From the NCBI GenBank assembly GCA_011523365.1, contig WTGY01000151.1, positions 1 through 64,000 of the forward strand: 64,000 nucleotides of DNA, given 5' to 3'. The notes beneath the pieces were generated by a model. That model saw only the letters and a list, made by a program, of their open reading frames with translations, did not search any database and was not told the origin of the DNA. How positions within the stretch are numbered: position 1 is the stretch's first letter; each line of letters opens with the position of its first letter. The stretch comes from Caldilineaceae bacterium (GTDB lineage: Bacteria; Chloroflexota; Anaerolineae; Caldilineales; Caldilineaceae). The position numbers were made by a program, and so were the translations under genes. Shown here piece by piece: positions 3,056-57,292 of this stretch.

Positions 3056-3512
3056 GGGTGCTTCGCAGTTTTGGGGTGGGAACAGCCTGGCGGGGAATCA
3101 GTGCCAGCGGTGGCTGGCGTTGTTTAGCGTCTTTGGGCGAGACGCAGTGCAGGCGTCCGGCCTGCCGTACGGTGGGGTCCGTCAGTTGGGGCGAGTGCGA
3201 GGGCAGGCACAAAGGCCGGCACCTACGGGGATCTGATGGGACTGGCGGGACGTGGTCTGGCTAAACACTCTCGGCTGGGCACCTTTTCGAATAGAGACAC
3301 CAGGTCGGCGAGGCATGTTGTAGGAGAGGGGGCGTTGCGGGGGCGGAGCCCCCGCACAAGGGAGGGCCGAATAGGCCCGACCGCCCGGAACTGCAGTGGT
3401 CAGTGATCAGTGGTCAGTGACTGGCCATTCTATTTGAGATTGCTGTGAGCACTGGGCATGGTCTATTCACTGCCTGAGTTTCACGTAAGTGTCCCCCCTT
3501 TGTAACGCACAG
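3056..3512 (+). repeat. dispersed inverted-repeat element, copy 1 (right end decayed)
   Basis: The left terminal repeat is GGGTGCTTCGC (3056-3066), a variant of the family GGGTGCATCCC. The next ~330 bp match copies 2-4 closely, including the GC-rich palindrome core at 3331-3386. The core is followed by GGAACTGCAG and a TGGTCAGTG-type short tandem repeat (3387-3421). The right end is degenerate (about 3502-3512, GTAACGCACAG where GAGATGCACCC is expected), but its position gives the family length of ~457 bp. There is no transposase gene inside. It separates the MocA gene from the importer operon. The preceding 2784-3055 shows nothing recognisable. Confidence 0.8.
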
Positions 3513-3528: not shown

Positions 3529-3558
3529 TTGACCTAGCGGCCCCAAATCAAATAGAAT
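3529..3558 (+). promoter_or_regulatory. sigma70-type promoter for the importer operon at 3630
   Basis: TTGACC (3529-3534), 18-nt spacer, TAGAAT (3553-3558). It begins 16 nt after the inferred right end of repeat copy 1 and leaves a leader of about 65 nt before the ATG at 3630. Confidence 0.6.
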
Positions 3559-3629: not shown

Positions 3630-5237
3630 ATGAGAAGGCGAAATATCTCCTTTGCAGCCACGATAATAGGACTAATCGTGATCCTTGCCATGCTTGCCGC
3701 CTGTGCTCCTGCTGCCCCGGCGGACAGCGGCGCCGATCAGGCCGCCAGCGCCGATGAGTCGGAAGCTGCCGCGGCGGCCGATGAAGGAGGGCCCAAGTAC
3801 GGGGGAATCCTAAAGTTTGGCCAAGCTCAGGCGTCAACCGTGATCAATCCCTGGGGTGGACGCTTGCACGGCGCGACCGAGTGGAACATCCTCCACCAGA
3901 TCTATGAAGGACTGCTGTATTGGGATTCGGGATACAACAACAACCCCTCACTGGCCGAGTCCTGGGAGGCGGTCAGCGAAACCGAATACATCTTCAATCT
4001 GCGCAAGGGAGTCCTGTTCCACAACGGCGAGGAGATGACCTCGGAGGACGTCGTTTACTCCTTTGAGCACGCGATGGATGAGTCGATTTCCGCCTACGCG
4101 GGCTGGTTGTCACCGGTCGCGAGCGTCGAAGCTACGGACGATTACACTGTAAAGGTGACGCTTAAGGAGCCTTACAGTCCATTTCTCGACGTGATTGGAA
4201 GGCCGGCGGTGCTGGTCATGCCTGCGGGCACCTTTGAGAAGGAACCGTTCGAGTACATTGGGACGGGGCCTTTCAAATTGAAGGAGTTCGAGCCGGGCGT
4301 CAAGACGGAGTTGGTCAGAAATGAGGACTACTGGGAGGAGGGCGTGCCCTACCTGGACGGCATCAGCATGTCCTATCTGCTCGACGACGCGGCCCGTGCG
4401 GCCAACCTTTCCTCTGACGCGGTCGATTTCATCATGATGGTGCCCGGCGCGTCCTGGGAATCTCTCACCCAGCAGGAGTACAAGCTGTTCACCGGCGACA
4501 CCGGAATCTTCTTCATGTTCACTTTCAACGTGGGGAGGGAGCCGTTCAACGACCCCAACGTTTTGAAGGCGCTGCAGCACCTGGTTGACAGGCAGGTCAT
4601 GTGCGACGTCTATACCGCCGGTCGCTGTAACCGCTTCTTCGCAGGCGACCCGCAGCCGCCGACCAGCCAGTACTATACCGGCATCGAGTACTTCAAAGAA
4701 CCGGACATTGAGAAGGCCAAGGAGTATCTGGCCAAATCCAACTATCCGGACGGCTTCGAAGTGGACCTGAACTTCTACGGGGCGGCATCGGATGAAGGCC
4801 AGATCGCCGAGATCCTTCAGATCAGTGCGGCCGAGCTGGGAATAAAGTTCAATCTTCTGGCCACCGACCATGCGGTCTGGGTGGAGAAGGTTTACAAGGG
4901 TGAGTTCACCGCCGCTTTGCAGGGCCTATACGCTTCGAGTCCGGACGACATCTTCTACGGGATCATGCATCCGGAGGGCGTGTCGCATGGCTTTGCTCCC
5001 AACTTTGACATTCCCGAGTACAACGTGCTGGTGGAAGAGGCGCGCAGGGTAACCGACCCCGATCAGCGCCGGGAACTCTATACGGAGGCGTTGACCATTG
5101 GGTATGAGGCGGGATGGCCGCTCATCTATCTCTTCACCTATGACGATCGCATGGGCATGCACCCGGATGTCATGGACTACCAGGTCGACGGTCTGGGCAC
5201 AGTGCGTTTTCTGAAGTACGTTTGGCTGGACAGGTAA
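3630..5237 (+). CDS. ABC importer substrate-binding lipoprotein, family 5 (peptide/nickel/oligosaccharide type)
   Basis: Exported solute receptor of 535 aa. The signal peptide has an RRR n-region, a hydrophobic stretch and the lipobox LAAC with the acylated cysteine at C25. It is followed by a low-complexity Ala/Asp/Glu linker (26-55) and the SBP_bac_5 fold, for example the YEGLLYWD and VYSFEHAMD segments. A strong Shine-Dalgarno (GAGGAGG at about 3613-3620) supports the ATG. Two permease genes follow after a 150-nt gap carrying a hairpin. No ATPase gene is in the operon. Family-5 proteins bind di/oligopeptides, oligosaccharides or metal chelates; the ligand here is not predictable. Confidence 0.92.
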   Translation: MRRRNISFAATIIGLIVILAMLAACAPAAPADSGADQAASADESEAAAAADEGGPKYGGILKFGQAQASTVINPWGGRLHGATEWNILHQIYEGLLYWDSGYNNNPSLAESWEAVSETEYIFNLRKGVLFHNGEEMTSEDVVYSFEHAMDESISAYAGWLSPVASVEATDDYTVKVTLKEPYSPFLDVIGRPAVLVMPAGTFEKEPFEYIGTGPFKLKEFEPGVKTELVRNEDYWEEGVPYLDGISMSYLLDDAARAANLSSDAVDFIMMVPGASWESLTQQEYKLFTGDTGIFFMFTFNVGREPFNDPNVLKALQHLVDRQVMCDVYTAGRCNRFFAGDPQPPTSQYYTGIEYFKEPDIEKAKEYLAKSNYPDGFEVDLNFYGAASDEGQIAEILQISAAELGIKFNLLATDHAVWVEKVYKGEFTAALQGLYASSPDDIFYGIMHPEGVSHGFAPNFDIPEYNVLVEEARRVTDPDQRRELYTEALTIGYEAGWPLIYLFTYDDRMGMHPDVMDYQVDGLGTVRFLKYVWLDR

Positions 5238-25423: not shown

Positions 25424-25568
25424 ATGTGTGTCATTTCGGGTGTGCTCACAAGCTGCGGGGTTGGATGCGTTTCTTCGTTGGCATGATAAATGCTATTGGG
25501 TTCGCTGTCCAATCGCCCCTGAACTTTCTTGGTAGCAGCCGATACCGGGGTGAAGGCGGGACGCATTA

Positions 25569-25790
25569 GGTCGAAAAGGCACCTGCTGGAAGGACGGCAC
25601 GAACTGGCCAAGGCAGGTTGTTGAAGGGGGGCATTGCGGGGGGACTCCCCCCGCACAAGGGAGGGCCGAAGGCCCGACCGTCCAAATGCGAGGAGAGAGC
25701 GGAGAGGAGTGAGGAGAGAGAGGAAGACGCCTTGGCTCGCGCCAATATGGAGCGCGAGCTGGCCAAGGTTTGGTCGTTTGAGACCCAAAA
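25569..25790 (+). repeat. truncated copy of the dispersed element, abutting copy 2
   Basis: It lacks the left ~200 bp. Similarity begins around AGGTCGAAAAGGCACCTG and runs through the core palindrome (25620-25682), a GAGGAGAG tract and a decayed right end near 25780. The intact copy 2 starts at 25807, so the two lie in tandem. The 145 nt to the left (25424-25568) hold no recognised gene. Confidence 0.75.
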
Positions 25791-25806
25791 AGCAGACATT
25801 GGCAAC

Positions 25807-26260
25807 GGGTGTATCCCAGCTCTGGGGTGGGAACAGTCTGGCGGGGAATCAGTGCCAGCGGTGGCTGGCGCTGTTTACCGTCTTTGGGCGAGACGCAGTG
25901 CAGGCGCCAGGTCTGACCGTACGGTGGAGTCCGTCAGTTGGGGAGGGTGCGAGGGCAGGCTCAAGGCCGGCACCTACGGGGATCTGATGGGACTGGCGGG
26001 ACGTGGTCGGGCTGGACACCTTCGATTAGGCACCTGTTACGAATATCGACACCCGGTCGATGAGGCAGTAGGGGGGGCGTTGCGGGGGCGGAGCCCCCGC
26101 ACAAGGGAGGGCCGACTAGGCCCGACCGCCCATAGGTGAGGGGAGAGGAGAGAGTAGTGAGAAACACCACTTCTTTTGCAGGCATCTGGAATGGGAACTG
26201 GCCTTGGCTTGGTTGCCTCCGGAGGTATGCGACTGTCCACCCCCGTTTTGAGATGCACCC
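25807..26260 (+). repeat. dispersed inverted-repeat element, copy 2 (intact)
   Basis: 454 bp. Terminal inverted repeats GGGTGTATCCC (25807-25817) and GAGATGCACCC (26250-26260). Internal core palindrome at about 26080-26131, then a GGGGAGAGGAGAGAG tract. Reading frames inside differ between copies and are not conserved, so no encoded protein is proposed. Confidence 0.88.
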
Positions 26261-26275
26261 ACGGCAACTAACGGA

Positions 26276-26304
26276 TTGACAATCTGAACACTGCTAAATA
26301 TACT
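26276..26304 (+). promoter_or_regulatory. sigma70 promoter for importer 3
   Basis: TTGACA (26276-26281), 17-nt spacer, TATACT (26299-26304). It starts 15 nt beyond the right terminal repeat of element copy 2 and leaves a leader of about 125 nt before the GTG at 26436. Confidence 0.78.
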
Positions 26305-26435: not shown

Positions 26436-27767
26436 GTGAACGAAACAAGATTGAGTCGTCGGAATTTCCTGCAGATGGCCGGCCTGTCCGCAGCAGGGGT
26501 TGCCCTCGCTGCGTGCGCGGCACCGGTCGCGCCCCAAGAGGCCGCCGGTGATGCAGAAGGCGGGGCTGAACCTCAGACCGTGCAGTTCTACACGCTGGTG
26601 TGGCAACCGGGCGCGGTCGAGGCCACACAAGCGGCGATCGACAACTGGAATGCCGAGCATGGCAGCCGCATTACTGCCGAATACATCCAGGGCGGATGGG
26701 GCCAGGCGCGTGACTACCTGACCACGTCGATTGCCGGCGGGGTAACGCCCGAAATCGTCCACGGCATTACGGCGTGGGCGAACGAGTACGGAACGCAGGG
26801 CGGTTACCTGGACCTGACCGAGTTGATCAATAACTCAGGGTTGGTGGAAACGACCCATCCCAAGGCGCTCGATGCGGCCGTCTCCCCCCTGGACGGCAAG
26901 ATTTTCAGTGTACCCTGGTGCTGGGAAGTCGGGACGATGTATGTTAATGCGGACCGATTCCACGAGGCAGGATTTGAGCTTCCCCTCGATGGCTGGACCT
27001 GGGACGACTTCATACCTGCTGCCAAGGAGCTCACCAGCCCGCCGGAATATTACGGACTGGCCGCCAACCTCACGGCGACACAGACGACCGAGGACATCAT
27101 CGCCTGGATGTGGCAGACCGGCGCCGAGGTGATGGGTGGATCGGGACAGAACTGGGAGATCGACGTGCAGCCGGCGCGCGAAGCCCTGCAGTTGTGGCAT
27201 GACATGCTCTGGGTGGATGACATCCTGTCTCAGGAAAGTTTCGGCGGCTCCAACACCTTGGAAGCGTTCGGACTGGGCATCTATACGATGCGCCAGACCG
27301 GCTGCTGGGCCAGACGTATCGTGATGGAGGCCGAGCCGGAGTTCGAGTGGCACATGGTCCCGCTACCTCATTACAAGCGCCACGCAAACAGCAGCGAACC
27401 GCAGACTTGGTCTGTCGCCACGGACGCGACTGCCAGAGGTACGGTCGATGCCGCATGGGAAGTCACTCTGTGGCTGTCCAACGACGAAAATTCTTCGGCC
27501 ATCGCCTACGGTGACTGGCTCTTCCCGACGAGCATCAAGGCGATGGAGGATCCCCGGTTTACGACGACGGAGCACGCCTGGGACGTGGCCCTGCGCGAGG
27601 TGGAGCACGGCGTCGGTTACCCCAAGCATCCGGCCTGGGCCGAGTTCGATGACCGTCTGTTGGGACCGAACATCCAGAAGTATCTGCAGAATGAAATGAC
27701 GCTCGACGAACTGATCGATCTTCTGGAGGTCGAAGGAACCAAGATTCTGCAGGAGTATCAGGCCTAG
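26436..27767 (+). CDS. sugar ABC importer substrate-binding protein, family 1 (CUT1 type)
   Basis: 443-aa exported receptor. The leader carries a twin-arginine motif (SRRNFLQ, residues 7-13) and a lipobox AAC with C27, so it is predicted to be Tat-exported and lipid-anchored. The mature part has the SBP_bac_1 fold (VEATQAAIDNWNAEH, then AGGVTPEIVHG). The GTG start is supported by AGAGGAGG. MalF- and MalG-type permease genes follow after a 355-nt gap with two hairpins, then a ferritin-like gene and a PfkB kinase. Probable ligand class: mono- or oligosaccharide or polyol. Confidence 0.92.
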   Translation: MNETRLSRRNFLQMAGLSAAGVALAACAAPVAPQEAAGDAEGGAEPQTVQFYTLVWQPGAVEATQAAIDNWNAEHGSRITAEYIQGGWGQARDYLTTSIAGGVTPEIVHGITAWANEYGTQGGYLDLTELINNSGLVETTHPKALDAAVSPLDGKIFSVPWCWEVGTMYVNADRFHEAGFELPLDGWTWDDFIPAAKELTSPPEYYGLAANLTATQTTEDIIAWMWQTGAEVMGGSGQNWEIDVQPAREALQLWHDMLWVDDILSQESFGGSNTLEAFGLGIYTMRQTGCWARRIVMEAEPEFEWHMVPLPHYKRHANSSEPQTWSVATDATARGTVDAAWEVTLWLSNDENSSAIAYGDWLFPTSIKAMEDPRFTTTEHAWDVALREVEHGVGYPKHPAWAEFDDRLLGPNIQKYLQNEMTLDELIDLLEVEGTKILQEYQA

Positions 27768-41365: not shown

Positions 41366-42655
41366 TTACAACTCCCCCCTTACGTGCCCTTCAATCCGAG
41401 ACAGAGTCGGATTCTCGCTCGTGGGGTCCTCGCCACCGTAGAACCAGGACGAAGGAAGAACCTTCAGATGATGGCCGCGGTGCCGGTGGCCCGCCATGTC
41501 AAACGGAAAGTGGTTGTACTGGATCAGGACCCGGTCTTCAGCGACATGCACGGCCGGGTAGGACCACATGCCGTATCCCTCCGGCAACGGCTTTACGGAG
41601 TCGACGTCACATTCGACGCCGCCCCCCGGGGCACCGTAGGCCCCCTCGGGTCGGACCGTGTAGAGAGGGCCTGGTTCGACATGGGTCTCTTCGTGAAGCG
41701 ATTCCAAGTTCTGAAAGTGTTCCCAGATACGACCCTGGTTGCGGCTGATGGCTGTCGACAGGCGTGTGCGGATCAGGCCCTGCTTGATCTCCTGCTCGCT
41801 TTGCTGCGTCCAGACGACGAGCAGGTGCCCCGTGCCGGGGAACTGGCGGATCTGGGCCGGGGCCTGCGTGCCGGCCAGCTGCGTCGGTTCGGGGCGGGTC
41901 CAGGTGTCGCCGTCGTCCTCCGACCAGGCCTGGTACATGCGTCCCAGCCGCGTGCGCAGGATCATCAGCAGCTTGCCGGGCGCGTACTCCACGAGGGTCG
42001 GTTCGTTTGTCAGCTCCCAGCGCCCGCCGTACTCCATGATGATGAGCAGTTCGCCGTCGCTGTTCTTCTGCCAGGTCTCGCCTTCGTCGTCGCTGTAGAT
42101 GACATAGCTGGCGGTAAAGTGGGGATCGTAGAAGTGCGCGCTTGTCGAGACGAAGACGCCATCAACGTATCCGCCCGGGAACGGCGCCCCCTCCTGGTGG
42201 AATCCGCCCTGGCCGATGCCGAAATAGACCGGCAGTAGGATACGGCCGGACTGCGTACGGACCATAGTGTCGTTGAGAGCATGCGCGGCCAGCATCCAAC
42301 GGTTCATGAGGGTGAGGGCCGACCATGTCCTGCCTTCATCCTCGGAGCGCCTGAAGACCATCTGCGACTCGTACAGGCGGGTGGTGCCCGGTCGAGTGCG
42401 CTTGGTCGCCATGCCGATGGCGCCGCCGGAGAGGTTTACCATCGAACAGTTTCTGAGCGTGAGCGGATCGCCGTTTTCGTCGAGCCCCGGGTAGGGCTCG
42501 CTCCAGGTGACGCCGCCGTCGGCGCTGACGGAGAAGTGGGTGCCGTTGCTGAAGAGGACGCGACCGCCCTCAAGGCCCACAAAGGCGTTCCCCGGGAACT
42601 TGCCGTCGTGGAAGGCCAGCATCTCTTCGGGCCTTGTCATCGGTACATTGCTCAT
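41366..42655 (-). CDS. sialidase-like BNR/Asp-box protein C
   Basis: 429 aa, no signal peptide. At least four clear Asp boxes: SADGGVTW, SEDEGRTW, SDDEGETW and SEDDGDTW, plus a weak SRNQGRIW. It is the first gene of the minus-strand run, behind a good promoter at 42989-43017. Sequence beyond the boxes differs from copies A and B, so these are not recent duplicates. Substrate unknown. Confidence 0.78.
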   Translation of the reverse strand: MSNVPMTRPEEMLAFHDGKFPGNAFVGLEGGRVLFSNGTHFSVSADGGVTWSEPYPGLDENGDPLTLRNCSMVNLSGGAIGMATKRTRPGTTRLYESQMVFRRSEDEGRTWSALTLMNRWMLAAHALNDTMVRTQSGRILLPVYFGIGQGGFHQEGAPFPGGYVDGVFVSTSAHFYDPHFTASYVIYSDDEGETWQKNSDGELLIIMEYGGRWELTNEPTLVEYAPGKLLMILRTRLGRMYQAWSEDDGDTWTRPEPTQLAGTQAPAQIRQFPGTGHLLVVWTQQSEQEIKQGLIRTRLSTAISRNQGRIWEHFQNLESLHEETHVEPGPLYTVRPEGAYGAPGGGVECDVDSVKPLPEGYGMWSYPAVHVAEDRVLIQYNHFPFDMAGHRHRGHHLKVLPSSWFYGGEDPTSENPTLSRIEGHVRGEL

Positions 42656-42988: not shown

Positions 42989-43017
42989 TTTATAGCATAT
43001 TGATGAATCAAGGTCAA
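42989..43017 (-). promoter_or_regulatory. sigma70 promoter for the sialidase-like/importer 4 run
   Basis: Minus-strand TTGACC (43012-43017), 17-nt spacer, TATAAA (42989-42994). The -35 box lies 16 nt from the left end of element copy 3 and reads away from it. The transcript would have a leader of over 300 nt (42656-42980) in which no gene or riboswitch is recognised. Confidence 0.65.
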
Positions 43018-43033: not shown

Positions 43034-43500
43034 GGGTGCATCCCAATATTGGGGCGAACTTTCGTATACCTCTGCAGGCACCCAAACCATGGTCAGTTCC
43101 CATTCCAGTTTTCGCCAGAAAAAGCGCCGCCTCTGACTGCTAACTACTGACTACTAACTGCTGCAGTTCTGGGCGGTCGGGTCTATTCGGCCCTCCCTTG
43201 TGCGGGGGCTCCGCCCCCGCAACGCCCCCTCCAACAACATGCCTCGCCAACCTGGTGTCGATATTCGTAACAGGTGCCTAATCGAAGGTGTCCAGCCAGA
43301 CCACGTCCCGCCAGTCCCATCAGATCCCCGCAGGTGCCGGCCTTGTGCCTGCCCTTGCACCCTCCCCAACCGACGCACTCCACCGTACGGCCAGGCCTGG
43401 CGCCGGCACTGCGTCTCGCCCAAAGACGGCAAACAACGCCAGCCCCCGCTGGCACTGATTCCCCGCCAGACTGTTCCCACCCCAAATCTGCGATGCACCC
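43034..43500 (-). repeat. dispersed inverted-repeat element, copy 3 (intact, reverse orientation)
   Basis: 467 bp. Terminal repeats GGGTGCATCCC (43034-43044) and GCGATGCACCC (43490-43500). The core palindrome is at 43171-43230. A GTCAGTAGTTAG-type short tandem repeat lies beside CTGCAG (43130-43166). Promoters lead away from both ends. No transposase gene. Confidence 0.88.
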
Positions 43501-55087: not shown

Positions 55088-55543
55088 GGGTGCATCCCGG
55101 AACGGAGGTGAACTTTCTTATTCCTCAAGAAGCAACAGGGCCGATTCCAGTCCGCGATCAACTCTACTGCAAGGATAGCGCCTCCCCTGACCACTGTCCA
55201 CTGACCACTGCAGTTCTGGGCGGTCGGGCCTATTCGGCCCTCCCTTGTGCGGGGGCTCCGCCCCCGCAACGCCCCCCCTTAATGCCTACCCGACCAGGTG
55301 TCGATATTGGTGACAGGTGCCTGTTCGAAGGTGTCCAGCCAGACCGCGTCCCTCCAGTCCCATCAGATCCGCGCAAGTGCCGGCCTTGTGCCAGCCCTTG
55401 CACCTTCCCTAACTGACGGACTCCACCGCACAGTCAGGCCTGGCGCCTGCACTGCGTCTCGCCAGGAAACGGTAAGCAATTTCAGCCATCGCTGGCAATG
55501 ATTCCCTGCCAGACTGGTCCCACCCCAAATCAGGGATGCACCC
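55088..55543 (-). repeat. dispersed inverted-repeat element, copy 4 (intact, reverse orientation)
   Basis: 456 bp. Terminal repeats GGGTGCATCCC (55088-55098) and GGGATGCACCC (55533-55543) are perfect inverse complements. The core palindrome is at 55218-55275, flanked by CTGCAG and a TGACCACTG short tandem repeat (55188-55212). Confidence 0.9.
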
Positions 55544-55558
55544 CTCGTCTCACTTCTT

Positions 55559-55587
55559 TTGACATAGGCAAGAAGATAGAGCATACT
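55559..55587 (+). promoter_or_regulatory. sigma70 promoter for importer 5
   Basis: TTGACA (55559-55564), 17-nt spacer, CATACT (55582-55587). It begins 15 nt past the end of element copy 4. The ~300-nt leader to 55892 shows no gene or recognised riboswitch. Confidence 0.68.
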
Positions 55588-55891: not shown

Positions 55892-57292
55892 ATGATGTCG
55901 AAAAAGTATTCGCGACGCGATATGCTCAAGTTGACCGGCGCTGCCGCCGGCGCAACGCTAATGGCGGCCTGTGTGGCACCTCCGGCCGCTGCGCCTGCCG
56001 GCGGCGACGCCGAACCGGCCATGGGCGCCATGCGCAAGACGGTGCGCTGGTGGGATAACTACAACGCCGAACATCCAATTGGCTCCACTCTGATTGAGCA
56101 GGTCTTCCCCGTTTTTGAGCAAGAGAATCCCGGTTGGGACGTCGAGTTTACATTTGTCACCAACACCGAGTTGGTGCCCAAGATGATCACCTCCCGGATG
56201 GCCGGCGAGCCCGCCGACCTTTTCGCCAACTTTGCCGGCCGCGGCAGCCTGGCACATGCCGGTTACACGACTCCGCTCCAGGACTATGTGAAGGAGTGGG
56301 GCCAGTGGGACGACATGATCGACGGCTTCCGCAACCTCAGCACCGTCGGCGGCGACCTGATCGGCTACCCGGCCCTCTGCGGTACCAAGATGTACATCTA
56401 CCGCAAGGACTTCTTCGACGAAGCCGGTCTCGATGCGGACACCTTCCCGGACAACTGGGATGACCTGCTGGACGCCCAGCTCAAGCTGACGCAGCGCGAC
56501 GGCGACGGCAATATCACGCGCGCCGGCATGCGCATGGGCAAGACGTGGGACTGGGAGCAGATGACGGTCAACGCCTACCAGAACGGCGGCGGCGAGTTCG
56601 ACCAGAGTGATCCGCTGACCGGCAAGTGCACGGTCAACGCACCCGAGTTCGCCGAGGCCTTTACCTGGAATCTTGACCTTAAGCGCGTCCACGGGATCAA
56701 CCCGCTGGAAGGCCTGACCCTGCCGCCCGGCACATGGGCGACGGTGGAGGGCTTCACCGCGATGGAGATTCAGGGACCGTGGTGGGTGCCCAACATGCGG
56801 TTGCGTAAACCCGAGAATGCCGACCTGATGGGGATCGGCGCGCCGATCGCCCGCAATGCCGGCGGTGAGCGCATCGGGCTGGCCAATGCCAACCACATCA
56901 TCAGCGTCTACTCCGAGAGCGAAGTGCAGGAAGCGGCCCTGGCACTGCTGGAAGTCTACTCCCGGCCCACCAGCCAGGAAGCCTTGCACAACGCCATTGA
57001 CGCCGAAGGCAGATTCCCGCAGTTCTTCCTCACGGCCTTCAGGTCGATGAACGAGAACCTGGCCTGGCTTCAGGATGAGCCGCTGATCCGCGACACGGCA
57101 TTCCTCGAATACGCCGGCTCGGGTCGTGACGTCGGCTACGACCATGTCGGCTATCGCGAAATGGCCATCAACATCTGGAGCCCCTTCACCGAAATGGCGC
57201 TGTTCGGCCTGCGTGAGGACCAGGATGCTCTGGACAGCATGGCGAGCAAGGCGGACGGGATCACGAACCGGATCCTGAGTACTGGCGCATAA
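55892..57292 (+). CDS. sugar ABC importer substrate-binding protein, family 1 (importer 5)
   Basis: 466-aa exported receptor. Twin-arginine leader (SRRDMLKL, 7-14) and lipobox AAC with C27, so Tat-exported and lipid-anchored. SBP_bac_1 fold with an unusual aromatic-rich start (VRWWDNYN). AAGGAGA lies upstream of two adjacent ATG codons. Two permease genes, a sialidase-like gene and a MocA oxidoreductase follow. The likely ligand is a sugar or sugar derivative. Confidence 0.92.
   Translation: MMSKKYSRRDMLKLTGAAAGATLMAACVAPPAAAPAGGDAEPAMGAMRKTVRWWDNYNAEHPIGSTLIEQVFPVFEQENPGWDVEFTFVTNTELVPKMITSRMAGEPADLFANFAGRGSLAHAGYTTPLQDYVKEWGQWDDMIDGFRNLSTVGGDLIGYPALCGTKMYIYRKDFFDEAGLDADTFPDNWDDLLDAQLKLTQRDGDGNITRAGMRMGKTWDWEQMTVNAYQNGGGEFDQSDPLTGKCTVNAPEFAEAFTWNLDLKRVHGINPLEGLTLPPGTWATVEGFTAMEIQGPWWVPNMRLRKPENADLMGIGAPIARNAGGERIGLANANHIISVYSESEVQEAALALLEVYSRPTSQEALHNAIDAEGRFPQFFLTAFRSMNENLAWLQDEPLIRDTAFLEYAGSGRDVGYDHVGYREMAINIWSPFTEMALFGLREDQDALDSMASKADGITNRILSTGA

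Follow-up and report, generated by a model that had tools for sequence, protein, structure and literature searches.

A gene-less, high-copy repeat mostly lies at a fixed distance upstream of predicted sigma-A promoters in a Caldilineaceae genome

The window analysed here is a stretch of 64,000 nt from a Caldilineaceae bacterium (contig WTGY01000151.1, positions 1 to 64,000), in which four ends of a repeated element each face an outward-reading promoter. Promoters and start sites throughout are predictions from sequence. The copy at 25807-26260 (forward strand, ~454 nt, terminal repeats located by position weight matrix) is complete, has 43 matches in the host genome and is bordered by a near-match 8-bp duplication (6/8 identical), with TTGGCAAC at 25799-25806 on the left and ACGGCAAC at 26261-26268 on the promoter side. 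Its right end at 26260 faces a sigma70-type promoter, TTGACA-17-TATACT (26276-26304, forward strand), in a region where 0.3 promoter-like sites are expected. This promoter points out of the element to an SBP_bac_1 gene at 26436-27767; 15 nt lie between the end and TTGACA at 26276, and TATACT occupies 26299-26304. A complete copy on the minus strand (43034-43500) has its right end, 43034, 16 nt from the minus-strand promoter TTGACC-17-TATAAA (42989-43017, with TTGACC reading from 43017), which is directed toward a gene for a BNR-repeat protein (41366-42655). A further complete copy, in the opposite orientation (55088-55543, minus strand), presents its left end to the forward-strand promoter TTGACA-17-CATACT (55559-55587), with 15 nt between 55543 and TTGACA at 55559 and an SBP_bac_1 gene beyond (55892-57292). 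The last copy is decayed (3056-3512, forward strand). Its right terminus was placed at 3512 by alignment with the consensus, in which window positions 3510 to 3455 pair with right-end consensus positions 3-55, and the promoter TTGACC-18-TAGAAT (3529-3558, forward strand) follows at 16 nt, toward an SBP_bac_5 gene (3630-5237).

An earlier note on this DNA had given these four spacings as 15, 15, 16 and 16 nt, and re-measuring in the window returned the same values. Near 25529 the minus strand offers a possible fifth case (TGGACA-17-TATCAT, 25511-25483); it was set aside, as the presumed end is too decayed and its alignment is at noise level. The window also holds two more GC-rich copies of the element core, at 148-237 and 25610-25699, that have no recognisable terminal repeats and are probably decayed elements.

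The repeat is ~455 nt long, with complete copies mostly between 440 and 476 nt, and is bounded by near-symmetric 26-bp terminal repeats of the form GGG...CCC. With the terminal repeat read as GGGTGCATCCC..., several copies are flanked by perfect 8-bp target duplications (GAGTTGAA, CAATTGCC, ATTCAGTC, AACTCACC and GGTGACGT). A protein-coding role was rejected, since open reading frames (ORFs) within the element have no Pfam match. The core (window 26066-26140) is predicted to form two GC-rich hairpins (-41.9 kcal/mol) that are more stable than those of shuffled sequences (z -3.3). A known structured RNA and a terminator were both considered for it, and neither an Rfam match nor a terminator-like site was found. 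By an exact 18-base pattern, the family occurs in most genomes of the genus, and a search of 44 further genomes gave no match. From 83 ends in 1.197 Mb we extrapolate to ~390 ends, or ~200 elements, per genome. Many contigs end inside the element (C22, C26, C38, C54, C110, C126, C153 and others), which makes the repeat a main cause of assembly fragmentation; the true copy number may be above 200.

The spacing was then mapped across the host genome, a fragmented assembly of 5.67 Mb in 214 contigs, of which contig C183 contains the window. The sample comprised 16 whole or nearly whole contigs (1.2 Mb), chosen blind to promoters, together with stretches around other copies. A 26-position matrix of the terminal repeat found 120 ends, and a Markov control yielded none at an equal threshold; the host genome has 104 occurrences of the exact motif GGGATGCACCC and 0 of its reversed control. 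An outward TTGAC follows at spacers of 14, 15, 16 and 17 nt at 2, 14, 8 and 1 of the 120 ends and is sparse elsewhere, and the wrong-strand control GTCAA is flat over the same ends. Among 161 non-redundant ends, 26 have TTGAC at a spacer of 15 or 16 nt, against 0.34 expected from the outer parts of the same flanks (Poisson p ~1e-39). The -10-like pattern TANNNT lies at 38, 39 and 40 nt from 28, 30 and 13 ends (71 of 161 in total), against ~1.4 per position. The 41 ends added later have TTGAC at 15 or 16 nt in 4 cases, at 13-17 nt in 6 and at 18-100 nt in none, and many without TTGAC still have a -10 box at 36-41 nt. Many targets have an imperfect -35 box, so TTGACN alone undercounts the association. 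The genome-wide distance plot proposed in the earlier note is peaked at 15-16 nt over the 161 ends, and not flat.

Scoring both promoter boxes together gave a similar picture. At a two-box score of at least 8.5, a promoter was called at 63 ends, and in 54 cases its -35 box lay at 14-17 nt; only 4 were called when the flank was read backwards. Twenty-nine of 40 complete elements have a sigma70-type promoter (score at least 7.5) at the set distance from one end, and none of the 40 does when the same window is shifted 50 nt outward. The shifted, wrong-strand and Markov controls rule out a chance spacing. Usually just one of an element's two ends faces a promoter. This is the right end in 15 complete elements and the left in 12; over all ends, 38 left and 32 right ends face promoters, in agreement with the earlier claim that the spacing is independent of element orientation. 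At 11 of the 40 complete elements neither end has a promoter above the strict threshold. A looser threshold reduces these to 6 of 40, but the control itself then reaches 7 of 40. The hrcA promoter call has independent support because a CIRCE-like inverted repeat, TTAGCACTC...GAGTGCTAA on the coding strand, directly follows the predicted -10 box (L305; C31:24400-24509).

Natural variation in promoter spacers allows the two boxes to be told apart. Promoters with a 17-nt spacer (n=48) have mean -35 and -10 offsets of 15.38 and 38.38, and those with an 18-nt spacer (n=17) have offsets of 15.47 and 39.47. The -10 box thus shifts (P = 0.0004) and the -35 box stays (P = 0.88), with the qualification that both offsets come from one scoring scheme. 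This is evidence that the distance is measured from the -35 box. The constant spacing to a -35 box described in the earlier note stands, but the constant feature is the whole promoter, -35 and -10 together. The 16 bases between element and -35 box, which include the duplicated 8 bp, have no clear base preference (maximum 0.14 bit). With the -35 box placed at -35, the element ends near -51 and the duplication covers roughly -50 to -43. In sigma70 promoters, positions -50 to -43 lie beside sigma region 4, on the proximal site of the alpha C-terminal domain.

Comparison with congeners bears on the order of events. When the flanks of the hrcA copy are joined, 15 of 16 congeners carry the resulting sequence without a break, at 80-97% identity; this empty site shows that the promoter was there before the element arrived. 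Four species have an element at the tRNA-Arg(TCG) promoter, at positions that agree to within 1 nt (L320, L321, L322, L058:1980-2054). It faces the promoter with its right end in G005 and with its left end in G014, G011 and the host genome. The same site is empty in G001, G003 and others. Elements also stack: at six ends a further element begins exactly 7-9 nt farther out, and beyond this zone an element start occurs once in ~120 positions. Such stacks are present in the host at L059 (C54) 242-473 and L019 (C55) 1265-1375, and autonomous copies in congeners stack as well (L209, L238, L239, L252). Newer copies insert between an older copy and its promoter, where a distance counted from the promoter would put them.

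Autonomous relatives of the element are present in congeners. G013 has a 1457-bp element bounded by two exact terminal motifs, and its two overlapping ORFs match NF033572, the NCBIfam model of the ISKra4 family transposase (218 bits, cut-off 205). The transposases of G013, G012, G001 and G010 all score above the 205-bit cut-off, and the ISLre2 profile scores 83 bits, below its threshold of 200. G012 carries six identical copies of the transposase stretch, and more are present in other congeners. In the closed congener genome G015, other pairs of long terminal inverted repeats were considered as autonomous copies and rejected, since no ISKra4 transposase lies at those loci. These autonomous Caldilineaceae elements are 1454-1458 bp long, have the ends GGGTGCATCCCAGATTT in common with the short element, and are flanked by perfect 8-bp duplications (CATCGGGC, TTCTACCC, ACCCAAGC). 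TTGAC lies ~15 nt from the end beside the transposase C-terminus, as in GGGTAGAACAGGGTC-TTGACA, and near-identical, recent autonomous copies obey the spacing rule too. More distant relatives with 9-bp duplications, in Chloroflexota and a cyanobacterium, have TTGAC at ~16 nt (L267, L269, L276, L278). In the fragmented host assembly, no intact transposase was found; a single 34-position remnant remains (C31:51822-51923), next to a terminal repeat that has TTGACA 15 nt away. The short repeat thus has the features of a MITE: it is short, has no transposase gene, and has ends and a duplication like those of the autonomous elements. It also agrees with ISKra4-type elements in its 26-bp ends (range 18-39 bp, terminal C), its 8-bp duplication (8 or 9 bp in that group), its insertion 15-17 bp upstream of the -35 box and its use of either orientation. 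On the sequences of its relatives, the MITE is placed with the ISKra4-type elements (p-MULT 4), a placement that implies no subgroup.

In three autonomous elements (L224:1118-2571, L223:854-2310 and L209:1436-2893) the transposase is split into two ORFs that overlap by ~85 nt, and ORF2 is offset by +1 (or -2) from ORF1 at a conserved GGG ATT TTT CCC CCT. The offset at this motif suggests programmed frameshifting that would differ from the -1 frameshift of ISMich2.

Taken together, we consider it very likely that the repeat is a MITE, a non-autonomous derivative of an ISKra4-type element (prokaryotic Mutator-like, p-MULT 4), inserted at sigma-A promoters by a transposase supplied in trans. Its anatomy, its duplications, the pre-existing promoters, the fixed distance, and the ends and target rule common to autonomous ISKra4-type elements are all observed. 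The ISKra4-type transposase of these relatives would be what moves the MITEs. A transposase from an autonomous relative would bind the near-symmetric 26-bp ends in trans and insert the element either way round, with the 8-bp duplication formed roughly at positions -50 to -43 of a sigma-A promoter already present; one end would then lie 15-16 nt upstream of the -35 box. The landing platform would most likely be promoter-bound RNA polymerase near the -35 box, at sigma region 4 or the alpha C-terminal domains.

A constant distance could also arise if the -35 and -10 sequences were part of the element, which would then bring its own promoter. This reading can be dismissed with near certainty: spacers vary among copies, as the earlier note had observed, and so do the promoters; the target duplication sits between element and promoter; and the empty sites refute it outright, with congeners that lack the element keeping the same promoter. 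In another reading, insertion into intergenic DNA is random, and copies at the set distance are kept by selection for an upstream control function of their ends. Ends that are alike at all sites, and the frequent binding of activators at -50, would suit such a role. Retention by selection nevertheless appears very improbable to us. Less and more diverged copies are associated with promoters equally (13/18 and 13/18), stacking is exact, opposite orientations occur at one promoter, and the spacing also holds for recent, near-identical copies of the autonomous relative. The targets are also diverse, with many housekeeping genes among them: downstream genes include serS, pheS, hrcA, uvrB, tRNA-Arg, a purL-like FGAM synthase and a proB-like kinase, as well as aminotransferases, P450s, PhyH and solute-binding proteins. 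Only ~5-6 of 40 annotated downstream genes are transport-related, and this diversity argues against the control element for import operons that the earlier note had offered as one explanation.

Its other explanation, insertion guided by promoter-bound polymerase near -50, fares better. Promoter targeting is borne out by the duplications, empty sites, recurrence, stacking and divergence data; that RNA polymerase is the guide is what we infer from them, as the most economical reading. The transposase might instead read the -35 and -10 DNA directly, without RNA polymerase. The target rule is apparent from DNA alone and both boxes are conserved, as direct reading would predict, yet sigma-bound polymerase typically tolerates both 17- and 18-nt spacers and poor -35 matches, as seen here, and the distance from the nearer strand-transfer point to the boxes is 7 to ~36 nt, with no base preference any closer. 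We consider direct reading possible, though unlikely. Returning to polymerase guidance, we give about an even chance to a more specific form of it, in which the transposase would attach to promoter-bound polymerase close to the -35 box (sigma region 4 or alpha C-terminal domains). The ~200 copies and their stacks would then be a fossil record of occupied promoters, and the element a low-cost, high-copy parasite that uses the transcription machinery as its platform.

In bacteria, transposition aimed at promoters is an established phenomenon that has received little study. A family of ~200 copies, with congeners at graded distances that retain empty sites, provides far more statistical power than single insertion sequences. 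It lets the -35 and -10 boxes be told apart, and its stacking and recurrence favour targeting over selection. The copies also flag likely promoters in an uncultured phylum with hardly any mapped start sites, and a promoter-directed insertion tool might be developed from the autonomous relatives. What appears to be new here is the MITE form, the ~200 copies, the -35 box as measuring point, the stacking, the recurrence in both orientations and the occurrence in a Chloroflexota genus.

Among known systems, the bacterial MITEs, such as Correia elements and RUP, are moved in trans and are likewise short, without a transposase gene, bounded by terminal repeats, flanked by duplications and present in high copy. 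To our knowledge, no bacterial MITE has been described with a fixed distance to promoters, and a literature search covering few subscription journals found no paper on a MITE with a promoter-distance rule. The gene-less, high-copy MITE form appears to be new. The promoter-aiming rule itself is already published, for TnGBS in 2009 and for ISLre2 and the ISKra4 group in 2014 (PMC3942029). Dictyostelium TRE5 is a eukaryotic retrotransposon found at RNA polymerase III genes, as is Ty3 (named in PMC3942029); contact is established for Ty3, whereas for the MITE we infer it. TnGBS and ISLre2 elements (p-MULT 3) insert 15-17 bases upstream of the -35 box of sigma-A promoters (PMC3942029, citing Brochet et al. 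2009) and so have this spacing in common with the MITE, but they have a transposase of another family, insert in an oriented manner and are autonomous. The same work reports duplications of 8 or 9 bp and the proposal that the transposase makes contact with the polymerase initiation complex (PMC3942029). Members of the ISKra4 group follow the same promoter rule, and those with almost the same inverted repeat at either end do so on both sides (Guerillot et al. 2014, PMC3942029). With this group (p-MULT 4) the MITE has in common the transposase family, the type of end, the 8-9 bp duplications, the ~15-17 bp spacing and the use of both orientations. The ISMich2 subgroup has two ORFs joined by a -1 frameshift, whereas the autonomous relatives here use two ORFs with an offset of +1 (or -2) and depart from that subgroup and from the group at large in this respect. 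ISKra4 group elements are autonomous and carry a modest promoter signal, whereas the element described here is gene-less, ~455 nt long and present in ~200 copies, with a promoter at most complete copies.
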